Source of the DNA: Gemmatimonadaceae bacterium
Lineage (GTDB): Bacteria > Gemmatimonadota > Gemmatimonadetes > Gemmatimonadales > Gemmatimonadaceae
Assembly (NCBI GenBank): GCA_025358925.1
Contig: JANYHT010000017.1
Location: 1-64,000 of the forward strand
Reading direction: 5' to 3'
DNA: 64,000 nucleotides
In this document: positions 25,894-34,053 of the stretch, piece after piece
How positions within the stretch are numbered: position 1 is the stretch's first letter
Layout: every line of letters starts with the position of its first letter
The notes under the pieces: generated by a model
Databases searched by the model: none
Told to the model about the DNA's origin: nothing
The model's input: the letters and a program-made list of their open reading frames with translations, nothing else
Position numbers and translations under genes: made by a program

Positions 25894-27247
25894 CCGGTCC
25901 TCCGGATCCGGGCGTTTCCGCGCGTTCCCCGTCGAGAAAACGCTGGATCACTTCGTATACGCGATCCAGTTCTTCATTGGTGGTGCAATAGGGAGGAAGA
26001 CAATACGCCACGGTGCCCAGCGGACGCAACAACACGTTTTCCTGCAACGCAAAACTTGCGAGCTCCCGGCCGACGCCACTGAGATATCCTGTGGTGCCCG
26101 TGAGTTCAACGGCCGCGATGGTTCCGATTTGACGCACCGCATGTACGCCGGGCGTACCACGCAACGCTGACAGATGATGCGCCTGTGCTACTTCGATGCG
26201 AATGCGATCGTCTTCGCTGTCCTCATCGAAGAGCTCGAGCGATGCCAGCGCTGCCGCACACGCAATCGGATTGGCCGTATACGAATGTCCGTGAAAAAAC
26301 GTCTTCTCGCGGTCGCTGCTCAAGAACGCGTCGTAAATCGCTTCCGTTGCAGCGGTCGCGCCTAGTGGCAGCGTGCCGCCAGTGATGCCTTTAGACATGC
26401 AGAGTAAATCCGGCGCAACGTCGGCGCGCTCGCACGCAAACATCGGCCCCGTTCGGCCAAAGCCCGTGAGCACTTCATCCGCAATGAGATGCACACCCGC
26501 CGCGCGCGTCCGCTCGCGTATTTGTTGCAGCACGCGTTCATCCCACACGCGCATACCACCGGCACCAAGTATCAATGGCTCGACGATCACGGCCGCGAGT
26601 TCAGACCCCCGAGTTTGCAACAGCTGGTCGAGCGCACGAATGGTGTCGCCTTCAGACGGATCTGGAAGTCGCGCGACTTCGAACAACAACGGTTCATACA
26701 TATGCGTGAACACTCCGCGCGCGCCTGCCGCCATCGCACCAAATGTGTCGCCGTGATACGCGTGATCAAGCGCGGCAATCAGGCGACGCGGCTGCCCACG
26801 ATTGGCAAACGATTGCAACGAGAGCTTAATCGCCACTTCAACGGCGGTTGATCCGTCATCAGAAAAAAAGATGCGAGAGAGTCCGCGTGGTAATCGCGCG
26901 CAGAGTCCCGCCGCGAGCGCTGCTGCTGGAGCGTGCGTGAACCCAGCGAAGATGACCTGATCAAGCGTGCGCGCCTGTTCCGCAATCGCTGCGACAATAT
27001 CGTCATGACAATGTCCGTGTGTTGTCACCCACCACGACGAGATCGCATCGAGAATTGGACGACCATTGCCTTCGTATAACCACGCACCTTTCGCGCGTGC
27101 GATCGCGATCGGAATCGGTGCTTGCAAATGCTGCGTGTACGGATGCCATACGTGCGCGGCGTCCTGCAAAAGCACAGCGTCGAGCGCAACCTCATCGGCC
27201 TCGTCGTCATCCCTATCCCCTAATCCCCAGTCCCTATCCCCTACCAT
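25883..27247 (-). CDS. bioA: Adenosylmethionine-8-amino-7-oxononanoate aminotransferase
   Basis: BioA transfers an amino group from SAM to KAPA to make diaminopelargonate, using PLP. The family motifs are VWHPYTQ (33-39), ISSWWVTTHGHC, the Asp of IADEVLTGFGRTG (D257) and the PLP lysine in CMSKGITGGTLPLG (K286). The ATG at 27247 overlaps the bioF stop, but the first 13 codons (MVGDRDWGLGDRD) are just a translation of a G-rich heptanucleotide array; GTG at 27175 would give a more usual N-terminus (LLQDAAHVWHPYTQ). Either start may be used. It sits between bioF and bioD in one operon. Confidence 0.95.
   Translation of the reverse strand: MVGDRDWGLGDRDDDEADEVALDAVLLQDAAHVWHPYTQHLQAPIPIAIARAKGAWLYEGNGRPILDAISSWWVTTHGHCHDDIVAAIAEQARTLDQVIFAGFTHAPAAALAAGLCARLPRGLSRIFFSDDGSTAVEVAIKLSLQSFANRGQPRRLIAALDHAYHGDTFGAMAAGARGVFTHMYEPLLFEVARLPDPSEGDTIRALDQLLQTRGSELAAVIVEPLILGAGGMRVWDERVLQQIRERTRAAGVHLIADEVLTGFGRTGPMFACERADVAPDLLCMSKGITGGTLPLGATAATEAIYDAFLSSDREKTFFHGHSYTANPIACAAALASLELFDEDSEDDRIRIEVAQAHHLSALRGTPGVHAVRQIGTIAAVELTGTTGYLSGVGRELASFALQENVLLRPLGTVAYCLPPYCTTNEELDRVYEVIQRFLDGERAETPGSGGPVDD
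27212..27247 (-). repeat. G-rich heptanucleotide array at bioF stop / bioA start
   Basis: On the minus strand, TAGGGGA TAGGGAC TGGGGAT TAGGGGA TAGGGAT runs from the bioF TAG stop into bioA. The units are about 7 bp with GGG or GGGG runs spaced 3-4 bp, fitting a G-quadruplex pattern. The same unit forms a longer array at 31880-31957. The array lies within the first 12 codons of the bioA frame. Confidence 0.8.
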
Positions 27248-28437
27248 CGCATCGCCGCCAACAAACTCGCCGCCAACGCATCAACCAACTCGGGCGGATG
27301 CAGCGCCGATACCGACACACGCAATCTCGATGTTCCCGCCGGTACGGTGGGCGGTCGGACGCCGCCAACAAGAAACCCTCGACGGCGCATGTCCGCGACC
27401 AAACTCATCGTGCGCATCGGATCACCCACGCGTATCGGCAGAATGTGTCCATCGCTCGCACCGGGCACATCGTGTCCACCGCTGCGTAACCGTTCGCGCA
27501 ACTGACGCGCACGACCAAGCACCGCCGTACGTCGCCACGTTTCGACCCGTGACAATCGGAGCGCCTCTAACGTTGCTGCCGCGATAGCCGGAGGAGTGCT
27601 TGTTGTAAAAATGAAGGAGCGAGCGCGGCTCGTGAGATACTCGATCAGCACCTGCGATCCGCCAACAAACGCACCAGCCGTACCAAACGCTTTTCCTAAC
27701 GTGCCAACGACAACGTCGACGCGCGTGGTAACACCGAAATGCTCAAGCGCGCCCGCACCAGTCGCACCAAGCACGCCTGTTCCATGCGCATCATCGACAT
27801 ACGTCCACGCACCAAAGCGTTCGGCCACCTCAACTAATCGGTCCAGCGGAAAGAGATCACCGTCCATCGAGAACACACCTTCCACGATGATGAGCGCGCG
27901 CCGATATGTCCCTTGATCCTGAGCTAACATCGATTCCAACGCATCGACATCCCCATGCGGAAAGATGCGCACCGTCGCCTTCGACAATCGGCACCCGTCA
28001 ACTAAAGACGCATGATTCAGCTGGTCGCTGTAAATCACGTCACCCAGTGATACGAGCGCTGGAATAACGCCGATATTCACCATGTAGCCGGACGGAAAGA
28101 GCAACGTAGAGTCCACGCCCTTAAACCGTGCGAGCTCGCGTTCGAGCGCATCGTGAATGGGATGATTCCCCGAGATCAAACGCGCCGCGCCCGCTCCCGT
28201 ACCCTCGGCCTGCAAGACCGCGCTCGCCGCACGCGCCACGCGATGATCCGCCGCGAGTCCGAGATAATCGTTCGACGCAAAATCCGCGACGCGTTCGCCA
28301 TCGAGTATCACGGTTCCAGCGCGACGCTGCTGCACCGCGCGCATGGAGCGCTTGAGCCCCGCTGCTTGCAGCGCCACCAACTCTTCGTCTAACACATCGT
28401 CAATTGGACGAAGCGTGCGCGTCCCGAGGCTCGTCAT
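27241..28437 (-). CDS. bioF: 8-amino-7-oxononanoate synthase
   Basis: The 398-residue PLP enzyme condenses pimeloyl-ACP (or CoA) with alanine. Motifs: FASNDYLGLAAD, GTGAGAARLISGNHPIHDALE, SDQLNHASLVDGCRLS, VDDAHGTGVLG, and the PLP lysine in GTLGKAFGTAGAFVGG (K249). The ATG at 28435-28437 gives the standard N-terminus; the frame upstream to 28719 overlaps the cupredoxin-like gene and is not protein-like. It starts 7 bp after that gene's stop. No BioC/BioH, BioI or BioW gene for pimelate supply is nearby. Confidence 0.95.
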   Translation of the reverse strand: MTSLGTRTLRPIDDVLDEELVALQAAGLKRSMRAVQQRRAGTVILDGERVADFASNDYLGLAADHRVARAASAVLQAEGTGAGAARLISGNHPIHDALERELARFKGVDSTLLFPSGYMVNIGVIPALVSLGDVIYSDQLNHASLVDGCRLSKATVRIFPHGDVDALESMLAQDQGTYRRALIIVEGVFSMDGDLFPLDRLVEVAERFGAWTYVDDAHGTGVLGATGAGALEHFGVTTRVDVVVGTLGKAFGTAGAFVGGSQVLIEYLTSRARSFIFTTSTPPAIAAATLEALRLSRVETWRRTAVLGRARQLRERLRSGGHDVPGASDGHILPIRVGDPMRTMSLVADMRRRGFLVGGVRPPTVPAGTSRLRVSVSALHPPELVDALAASLLAAMRW

Positions 28438-30998: not shown

Positions 30999-31850
30999 CT
31001 AGGCCAGCACTGCCGCCGCGAGCATCGCCGCCGTCCCCGCGCCAATCCACCACAATCGCCCCCAATGCGCGGGGTCCGAATGCCGGTCGTGCAGCGACGC
31101 TCTCGCCACCACCTGCGCGATGTACAGGTACGTCCCTGCGGCAACCGGCAGGAGGTAGCCCGCGAGCGAGACCACCCGTTCCCCGATGAGGAGCGTGAGC
31201 ATTGCGCCGAGCATCGCAATGATTGCGGTGACGAGGTTGTAGGCCACGGCTCGCATCGGACGAATACCACCGTGCACAAACAAGCTGAACGTGCCCACCT
31301 CACGCGGAAGTTCGTGCATCCCAACCGCGAGCATCGTCAGCAGCCCCACCGATGGCGCGGCGAGAAAACCGGCGGCAATCAGCATTCCGTCGACGAGATT
31401 GTGCAGCGCATCGCCAAGAAATGTCATTGGCGCGATGGCTCTGGCACGCGCAACAGCAGCATGGGAATTGGCAGGAATTGGGTGTAAGTGTACGCATTCT
31501 GCTGCACTACTGTCGCTACTATGTGCGGACGGGGCTCCCAGCGCAACTCCATGCGCGTGCGCGTGATCGTGACCCGCCAGCACCCGCTCAATCAACCAAA
31601 ACATGGCGAAACCACTCAACACGCCAAGCAGCACGAACGTAGGTGATTGCCCTATTCGCAGCGCGTCGGGAATCAAATGCGCCACCGCTGCACCAAACAC
31701 CGCGCCCGCGCCAAACGCCGTGAGCTGCGGCAGAATGCGCCGAATCCACTGTTCCCGCTGCGCCATCAGCAGCGTGACCAAGAGCGGCACTCCAGACACG
31801 ATGGCAACCGATGTCAGGCTGCCCGACCACGCATCAACGGGAAATTGCAT
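30999..31850 (-). CDS. ZIP-family metal transporter
   Basis: The 283-residue membrane protein has the paired ZIP helix motifs FLGDALHNLVDGMLIA (HNxxD) and GMHELPREVG (HExPxExG), with about eight hydrophobic segments and a His-rich cytoplasmic loop (HDHAHAHG and later HLHPI) between segments 3 and 4. ZIP proteins import zinc or other divalent ions. The start is ATG 31850; TTG at 31865 is possible. The G-rich heptamer array ends 30 bp before this ATG, so it would form part of the 5' leader if transcribed from upstream. Confidence 0.9.
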   Translation of the reverse strand: MQFPVDAWSGSLTSVAIVSGVPLLVTLLMAQREQWIRRILPQLTAFGAGAVFGAAVAHLIPDALRIGQSPTFVLLGVLSGFAMFWLIERVLAGHDHAHAHGVALGAPSAHSSDSSAAECVHLHPIPANSHAAVARARAIAPMTFLGDALHNLVDGMLIAAGFLAAPSVGLLTMLAVGMHELPREVGTFSLFVHGGIRPMRAVAYNLVTAIIAMLGAMLTLLIGERVVSLAGYLLPVAAGTYLYIAQVVARASLHDRHSDPAHWGRLWWIGAGTAAMLAAAVLA

Positions 31851-31879
31851 ATCGAGTGCGCTCAAACTAACCCGCGCAT

Positions 31880-31957
31880 CAATCCCTATCCCCGATCCCT
31901 AATCCCTGATCCCTAATCCCTGATCCCTGATCCCAAATCCCTCATCCCTAGTCCCTA
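31880..31957 (-). repeat. G-rich heptanucleotide tandem array (about 11 units)
   Basis: Read on the minus strand, the array begins with the TAG stop codon of the upstream gene: TAGGGAC TAGGGAT, then GAGGGAT, TTGGGAT, CAGGGAT, CAGGGAT, TAGGGAT, CAGGGAT, TAGGGAT, CGGGGAT and a final AGGGATT. The consensus is YAGGGAT with period 7. There are 11 GGG runs with mostly 4-nt loops, a canonical potential G-quadruplex series. It fills the gap between the LIC_10091-like gene and the ZIP transporter. Confidence 0.9.
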
Positions 31958-33217
31958 ACGCGATCGCCCAATCACGTCTCCATAGCTCCGCACCAACCCC
32001 AACTTCGCATCCAATACCAACGAGATGATCGGCGACGTTAACTGCGCCATCATGTTGTTGCCGTTCCGCCCGGCGTATCCGCCACCGCCAAAGCCGCGAT
32101 TCGTTACGGAGCGAATAAACGCGCTCGTGGTATCGAGCGGCAACGTTTCGACATTCGCGTAAAAGCGATTCCAATCGTCACCTTGCATGAACAAGTATTG
32201 CTCGACGTTGCTGGTATAAAACACGTTGACTTTTGCCCCGCGCTCGCGGAGCCATGCCCCAACAGTACGCAGCGCCTTCGGTCCAGAAAAATTACCAACG
32301 AGTGGCACAACGAGATTGCGACGCTGCATGTCTCGCACCACGATATACGACGCCTCCGAAGCTAAAAATCCGCGGTTCAATCCCGTCTCGTCTGTCGCTC
32401 CTGCAATATCAGCAAACGTGGGCATGCCGCGGCCAAAACCACCACGCCCGCCGCCACCACCACTGCCAAACCCACCGCTCCCCGACGAATAATTGAGCGA
32501 CGGCCCCGACGAAAAAAACACGCTGTCCACGTAGCGCAGCGTCGACAAATCGGTCGAGTCAATCGTAAAGCCATGTGTCTTCACCAACAGGTCGCGCACC
32601 TCCGCAAACGTGCGACGAAAGAGGATTGGATCCGCAGGCGTTCGTCCAAGCGCCACGATCAGTGAATCGGCCGAGAGTGTCGGCAAGGTGTTCGTCGGCA
32701 ACGCGCGCGCAAACAATCGTGAGAGAAATGCGCCACGCGTCGGCGACAATTCAAACACGGCCTTATACCACAAATGCTGCAACAAATTCTGTCGACGGAT
32801 GTCAACGATGAACGCAATGCGCGGACGCAGCGCCGCGAGATATGTGAAGTTCTGTTCTGGACCTACGCCCACGTATACACCACCGGGCGGCACCGCTTGT
32901 TGCAAGCGAGGGATCACATACTGCACGCCCATCTCATTCGACACGAAATTCTCGGATCGAAAATATCCGCCCGGCTCGGAGAACTGCGTGATCATGCGCC
33001 AGTACGTGCTGTCGCTCAGCCGATCCGGAAGCCGAGCGCCGTAGAGTGTCGGCGCCAGTGGTGCGAGGCTCCCCAGCGGGTCGACCGCCGCATGTGCCAA
33101 CCTCGGCGCACGATGACAGGCCGCCGACAGGACGCTCGCCGCGACAACCGTACACGCGAAAAATCCCGAGTGTCTGAGCGACGCAGACCGCGTGGAGGAA
33201 CCGGAGTGGGAGATCAT
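31955..33217 (-). CDS. Exported conserved protein with Rossmann/SAM-like motif (LIC_10091-like)
   Basis: The 420-residue protein has a lipoprotein-like signal (VVAASVLSAAC, C34). The core has NEMGVQYVIPRL, then VYVGVGPEQNFTYLA (GxGxE near 116-121) and IAFIVDIRRQNLLQHLWYKA, which resembles motif I and acidic loop II of SAM methyltransferases; later GNFSGPKALRTVGAWLRERG and VNVFYTSNVEQYLF follow. I recognise the pattern as the LIC_10091-like group of unknown function; this assignment is from memory. A Gly-rich insert sits at about 245-264, and another Gly-rich patch near the C-terminus. The start (ATG 33217) is chosen for the signal peptide. The TAG stop is the first unit of the G-rich array. 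Confidence 0.75.
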   Translation of the reverse strand: MISHSGSSTRSASLRHSGFFACTVVAASVLSAACHRAPRLAHAAVDPLGSLAPLAPTLYGARLPDRLSDSTYWRMITQFSEPGGYFRSENFVSNEMGVQYVIPRLQQAVPPGGVYVGVGPEQNFTYLAALRPRIAFIVDIRRQNLLQHLWYKAVFELSPTRGAFLSRLFARALPTNTLPTLSADSLIVALGRTPADPILFRRTFAEVRDLLVKTHGFTIDSTDLSTLRYVDSVFFSSGPSLNYSSGSGGFGSGGGGGRGGFGRGMPTFADIAGATDETGLNRGFLASEASYIVVRDMQRRNLVVPLVGNFSGPKALRTVGAWLRERGAKVNVFYTSNVEQYLFMQGDDWNRFYANVETLPLDTTSAFIRSVTNRGFGGGGYAGRNGNNMMAQLTSPIISLVLDAKLGLVRSYGDVIGRSR

Positions 33218-33363
33218 CAGCAGACCATAGTGCGAAAGACCGCTAGCGCGAAAGAGCGACAGTACCGCAAGATGCTGAAACGGCAACGTGCGCGACGTCG
33301 TACGCGTTGACAGCCAACCGGTGGTGTTGGCGCATACCCAGCGACTTCGACAGGACAGTGTTA

Positions 33364-34053
33364 ATGCGCGATCAGACCTTTGGCTCGACGAATACCCCAG
33401 CGACGCCACCGCCCGCGCGGAGCATTGACGGCGCACGTGAGCTATCCCGCGCGAGCGCCGCCGACGTCTATAAAGCCGTCAAAAACGAACGGTCGGAGTT
33501 ACGAAGCCAGCTCGGGTCGCTGGAAAGCAAGCGCTCGGAATTGACGTCCACGTTGTCGGACTCAGATACTCCAGCGTCGGCGAAGGCGGGTTTGGAGGGC
33601 CGCATAAAAGACGTGGACGCCCGGATTGTGTTGGTCGACCAGCAAATCGCGCAAGCCGACGCGGCCGTCGCGAAAGCCGCCTCGGTGCCCGGCGCCATCG
33701 TCGAGCCACCGCCGTACGTTCGCGATGGTCCACCGGAGTCGCTCTATGCAATTCCGATCGTCTTCACGCTCTGCGTGCTCATGCCGATTTCGATTGCCTA
33801 CGCCCGTCGGATCTGGAAACGTGGCGCCACGATAGTCTCACCCGTCCCGCAAAAAGTCCAAGACCGTCTCGATCAGTTGAGCGAAGCGATTGACTCGATT
33901 GGACTCGAAGTGGAGCGCATTGGTGAGGGCCAACGGTTCATGACACGAGTGCTCACCGATCACAATGCCAAGGGACTCGGCGCCGGCGCCGCGCAACCCA
34001 TTGCTGTGCCACAGCGAAATCTCGAATTCGCCACCGCTCCGCGCGTCGAGTAG
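33364..34053 (+). CDS. Coiled-coil membrane protein of unknown function
   Basis: A 229-residue protein: a basic, Pro/Ser-rich N-terminus, a long coiled coil (about 30-105; ERSELRSQLGSLESKRSELT and IVLVDQQIAQADAAVAK), one transmembrane segment near 130-147 (AIPIVFTLCVLMPISIAYA), and a second helical stretch (VQDRLDQLSEAIDSIGLEVE). Start ATG 33364. It is divergent from the LIC_10091-like gene and 138 bp upstream of the second ECF sigma gene. I do not recognise a named family. Confidence 0.78.
   Translation: MRDQTFGSTNTPATPPPARSIDGARELSRASAADVYKAVKNERSELRSQLGSLESKRSELTSTLSDSDTPASAKAGLEGRIKDVDARIVLVDQQIAQADAAVAKAASVPGAIVEPPPYVRDGPPESLYAIPIVFTLCVLMPISIAYARRIWKRGATIVSPVPQKVQDRLDQLSEAIDSIGLEVERIGEGQRFMTRVLTDHNAKGLGAGAAQPIAVPQRNLEFATAPRVE

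Follow-up and report, generated by a model that had tools for sequence, protein, structure and literature searches.

The G-rich heptamer array at 31881-31958 (minus strand) of the 64,000 nt stretch analysed here, referred to as the window, is almost certainly one copy of a dispersed, slippage-expanding repeat with the core unit TAGGGRN, equivalent to GGG(A/G)NTA, and the family almost certainly belongs to the class of G-quadruplex (G4)-forming heptamers known from Xanthomonas and Nostoc, here in Gemmatimonadota. The copies are held at gene ends with a fixed polarity and the best explanation that we can offer, with a little less than even confidence, is that they are polar gene-boundary or 3′-UTR elements. 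On the minus strand, the window array reads CGCG and then TTAGGGACTAGGGATGAGGGATTTGGGATCAGGGATCAGGGATTAGGGATCAGGGATTAGGGATCGGGGATAGGGATTG. Direct reading gives 11 GGG runs with the consensus YAGGGAT (GGGATYA), in an exact 7 nt register for 10 of the 11 with the final run one base short, and Tandem Repeats Finder reports a period of 7, 11.3 copies and a score of 93, the highest in the window, in agreement with the approximately 11 minus-strand heptamers and 11 GGG runs counted in the first-pass annotation. All eight copies of GGGATNNGGGAT in the window lie within the array, with 0.01 expected from shuffled sequences. As was also recognized at first pass, unit 1 supplies the TAG stop codon (31955-31957, minus strand) of the upstream DUF7790 gene (PF25046; 31955-33100, minus strand, start approximate), within an ORF (31955-33436, minus strand) that ends at TAG 31957-31955, inside the array, and the other end of the array is 30 bp from the ATG, at 31850, of a ZIP-family metal transporter gene (30999-31850, minus strand; Pfam Zip, PF02535, 2.4e-29). 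The DUF7790 orthologues in three other genomes, G009, G007 and G002, have the same end point within a few residues. The G4-forming capacity that had been read from the letters is strongly predicted by computation, with a G4Hunter score of 1.31 and an RNAfold minimum free energy of -21.9 kcal/mol when quadruplexes are allowed compared with -11.4 kcal/mol when they are not.

A second array of the family, with five units, is located at 27211-27243 or, more broadly, 27208-27247 (minus strand), and a class I/II aminotransferase gene (27241-28437) terminates at its first TAG. The third unit has TGG in place of TAG, and as this TGG is exactly in the frame of a class III aminotransferase ORF located downstream, that ORF continues through the array (MVGDRDWGLGDRD...). 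The counterpart in congener G018, a draft genome of 490 contigs with 86-94% DNA identity to the source genome (84-94% in most of the stretches compared), likewise has TGG at unit three, as though the frame were being maintained.

The possibility raised at first pass of a dispersed repeat family is borne out by the 4.0 Mb source genome (72 contigs), in which TAGGGNNx3 has 136 overlapping matches and a start-anchored pattern identifies about 44 arrays. Arrays were studied in detail in 881 kb of surrounding DNA, a sample enriched for arrays, in which a small 3-periodic model called 713 genes with 87% of the DNA coding. A more tolerant scorer located 77 TAGGG-core arrays in these 881 kb and zero copies in order-2 Markov simulations, which were substituted for a reversed-pattern control that is uninformative because TAGGGAT is identical when read backwards. 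Nearly all arrays are intergenic; only 4 of the 77 are positioned ≥80% inside called genes, in DNA that is 87% coding. Long TAGGGGT arrays are present at contig ends of the assembly or about 50 bp or less from them (G000 C18:96176-96229 and C1:92321-92455), so that arrays probably break the assembly with the long ones under-counted. With units picked by GGG spacing alone, and the flanks therefore unselected, T occupies unit position 1 in 88% and A occupies position 2 in 91%, with A or G at position 6 and any base at position 7. When the unit is instead started at its G run, it becomes GGG followed by A (74%) or G (23%), any base, T (88%) and A (91%), and the consensus in the source genome is GGGATTA.

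Recording the further copies relative to stop codons, as the first-pass annotation had proposed, reveals that anchoring is specific to one strand. Among arrays with a same-strand gene on the 5′-side of the G strand, 38 of 41 begin ≤11 nt from the stop codon of that gene, where uniform intergenic placement predicts 9.3 ± 2.0, whereas arrays in the opposite orientation behind a stop codon are not anchored (7 of 42 within 11 nt, with 9.7 expected). In congener G018, 18 of 20 arrays in this same-strand arrangement are within 11 nt of the stop codon. With stricter exclusions, 37 arrays have stop distances of -17 (6 arrays), -10 (6), -3 (14) and 1-11 nt (9), with two outliers beyond 400, and the negative distances correspond to the three frames in which a TAG of the array can act as the stop codon. 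The polarity is fixed, the G-rich strand corresponding to the coding strand of the preceding gene. A weaker antisense preference may also exist before start codons, with 16 of 33 antisense but only 3 of 30 sense arrays located ≤50 bp upstream (p=0.02 on distances). That arrays land within genes and shorten them was considered and rejected, as congener homology extends to the last residues of two test genes that end in arrays (residues 334 of 338 and 290 of 294). At the array pair C3:4876, the C-terminus of one gene agrees with G018 within a few residues and the convergent partner is 14 codons longer in G018.

Array position is conserved in a relative, a point on which the first-pass annotation had made its significance depend. 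In G018, an array, at times degenerate, is in the same place at 32 of the 33 loci with both flanks alignable; many of the G018 contigs compared were chosen for carrying arrays, and in regions picked without that bias 7 of 8 arrays are kept. Both the number of units and their letters have changed at most shared loci. At the one remaining locus, the site is empty in G018 (16 bp), where the source genome has a 100-bp pair (C3:4876-4976). Some loci are about 100% identical to G018 (C18:89685, C26:68700 and C50:173672 versus L334, L301 and L342), the result either of recent exchange or of cross-binning of the source and G018 assemblies. The TAGGG unit is patchily distributed in the genus and order, being found in 13 of 61 genomes searched; it is abundant in the source genome and G018, and absent or rare in most congeners and therefore dispensable. 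Period-7 GGG arrays of other units are present in 115 of 149 relatives, a raw count without a per-genome background in which some matches are poly-G, and the exact 21-mer (TAGGGAT)x3 is present across many phyla. A member of the same taxonomic family, G070, sampled for nine arrays only, has long GGGGATT/GGGGACT arrays (L368, L369 and L380), the unit of Nostoc, which belongs to a different phylum.

Among alternative explanations, the one that survives best is that the arrays constitute a functionless heptamer microsatellite, expanded by slippage, with selection only purging the copies that arise in genes and regulatory regions. We regard this as possible, although improbable on balance. The patchy occurrence in 13 of 61 genomes, the strong turnover of copy number and letters, and the empty site at C3:4876-4976 are all consistent with such a neutral origin. 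Mutation alone, however, recognizes neither stop codons nor gene orientation, and the difference between 38 of 41 and 7 of 42, repeated in G018, therefore implies selection on array location and orientation, even if this selection merely purges harmful copies. In addition, position 7 of the unit varies, in contrast to its nearly constant TA and R positions. The strand-specific and nearly absolute anchoring to sense stop codons, together with the retention of position despite the turnover of letters, argues against a purely neutral microsatellite.

For the gene-boundary element that we prefer, an action of the array on transcripts might account for the maintained polarity, a mechanism that we propose only tentatively and rate as somewhat less than probable. 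The outgoing transcript would carry the G-rich strand and might form an RNA G4 in its 3′-UTR, upstream of any terminator, that could plausibly protect the 3′-end. Transcription incoming from behind the gene would encounter a G4 on the DNA template, generating a C-rich RNA, and this template G4 could be a polar roadblock, expected to impede transcription that enters the gene as antisense or read-through. Several arrays do sit between a stop codon and an ordinary intrinsic terminator, and so in a 3′-UTR, and intergenic regions between convergent genes are enriched in the elements (odds ratio 3.1, p=0.002). The rule of G-rich outgoing and C-rich incoming RNA fits most cases, but 9 of 60 elements are flanked by divergent genes, as are 95 of 393 intergenic regions of ≥40 bp. 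The dispensability of the unit among congeners also weighs against a boundary function, as does the report that a clear expression or regulatory effect of the corresponding repeats was not found in Xanthomonas (Rehm et al. 2015, PMC4692102).

The first-pass annotation suggested that the array might control the ZIP gene, as a cis-regulatory leader with a G4 that switches translation or transcription. Its closeness to the ATG and the good conservation of the ZIP leader between the source genome and G018 are in keeping with this, but the family adjoins many different genes genome-wide, following the stop codons of unrelated genes, G007, G009 and G002 all lack a TAGGG array at the corresponding site, and Rfam covariance models have no match at E≤1 across 31000-33200. 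The proposal is not supported and appears very unlikely. The arrangement in G018 also speaks against it. The G018 match to the ZIP side extends up to window position 31897 (contig C359) and the match to the DUF7790 side starts at 31939 (contig C330), which places the break in synteny within the array and the two genes on different contigs. G009, G007 and G002 share the gene order of the window, and the G018 arrangement is therefore either derived or the product of a draft assembly that is wrong at this locus. The stop codon of the G018 DUF7790 gene is still accompanied by a short array (TAGGGATTGGGGATTAGGGG), whereas the ZIP leader has only a remnant of one or two degenerate units, which argues that the array belongs to the gene that stops and not to ZIP. 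In the array-less congener G009 (L064), a different short period-7 run is present at the stop codon of the DUF7790 orthologue (TAGCCCGTAGACCGTAGCCC).

Also very unlikely is that the arrays serve as translational stop cassettes for all three frames. That a 7 bp unit carrying TAG places stop codons in every frame, as noted at first pass, is true of the sequence, although not every unit has a TAG (several units of the window array have CAG, GAG or TTG instead), and 26 of 37 same-strand arrays do provide the stop codon as a TAG in unit 1, 2 or 3 (14:6:6). As a function, however, this did not hold. Conservation of TA is 81% in stop-anchored arrays, where it would be read by ribosomes, and 80% in other arrays, with no dependence on unit index, so that the supply of stop codons is a by-product of the unit, and the cassette reading was rejected. 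Consistent with this, the GGGAATC and GGGGAYT units of Xanthomonas and Nostoc are stop-free yet occupy the same location (PMC4692102).

Neighbouring arrays within 150 bp of each other are convergent in 15 of 15 pairs, with spacers of 6-77 bp, and a convergent partner is present for 37 of the 77 arrays, a divergent partner for 0 of 77. Such pairs, and the absence from G018 of an entire pair at one site, would fit the arms of a palindromic mobile element, REP- or MITE-like, but the variable letters are not shared between the arms of a pair (cosine 0.39 versus 0.48 for the null), and the arms are therefore independent. The spacers are local sequence, some being an ordinary intrinsic terminator, and several are conserved with G018. 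With no common element body and with native spacers, this explanation was rejected and is highly improbable. Equally improbable is that the pair itself, through a hairpin of G-array and C-array, is a transcription terminator, since, although convergent pairs could form a stem and transcript starts or stops in Xanthomonas are more frequent at these G4-forming repeats than at control sites (PMC4692102), about half of the arrays, including that in the window, are unpaired. Among spaced convergent gene ends, ordinary terminators follow the stop codon in 39% of those with arrays (7 of 18) and 22% of those without arrays (18 of 82), which in this small sample indicates that the arrays do not replace terminators.

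Heptamer repeats with some of these features have been described in other Bacteria. The TAACTGA repeats of marine Beggiatoaceae (MacGregor 2015, PMC4679880), proposed to be protein-binding sites in mRNA leaders, are similarly dispersed, intergenic direct repeats with a patchy taxonomic distribution that have stop codons in all frames and, in some cases, overlap upstream stop codons; unlike the TAGGG arrays, they are not G-rich and mostly occur in forward orientation just before start codons. The closer counterparts are the G4-forming heptamer SSRs of Xanthomonas (GGGAATC/GGGANTN) and Nostoc PCC7120 (GGGGA(C/T)T), for which Rehm et al. (2015, PMC4692102) already described intergenic enrichment, convergent pairs, stop-codon overlap, a bias towards the nearest 5′ ORF, unit turnover and G4 folding. 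The TAGGG arrays share with them a period-7 GGG unit, an intergenic location that is nearest to the 5′ ORF, a stop codon on the sense strand that is overlapped or close by, a typical length of ~4 units, and a position kept between species while length varies; convergent pairs are common to Xanthomonas and to the TAGGG arrays. The GGG-R-N-T of the TAGGG arrays agrees with the Xanthomonas GGGANTN, with position 4 relaxed to R, and the Nostoc GGGGAYT also fits this formula in another register. Neither GGGAATC nor GGGGAYT is the exact consensus in the source genome, where it is GGGATTA. The TAGGG arrays differ from both in their phylum, in having A (74%) or G (23%) at position 4, and in a unit that, as its seventh base is A (TAGGGRN), carries TAG; their stop anchoring was measured within 11 nt, compared with 50 for Xanthomonas and Nostoc. 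To this prior work are added a new phylum and unit, quantification of strand-specific stop anchoring, the independence of the arms, evidence against the stop-cassette reading and patchiness within a genus. It is conceivable, although we consider it unlikely, that the GGGRNTN heptamers of these unrelated phyla are one recurrent class of putative polar gene-boundary elements that screen genes from incoming transcription. Such elements would sit at stop codons, the coding side having the G strand, and the seventh base would differ by lineage: A in the source genome, C in Xanthomonas and G in Nostoc.
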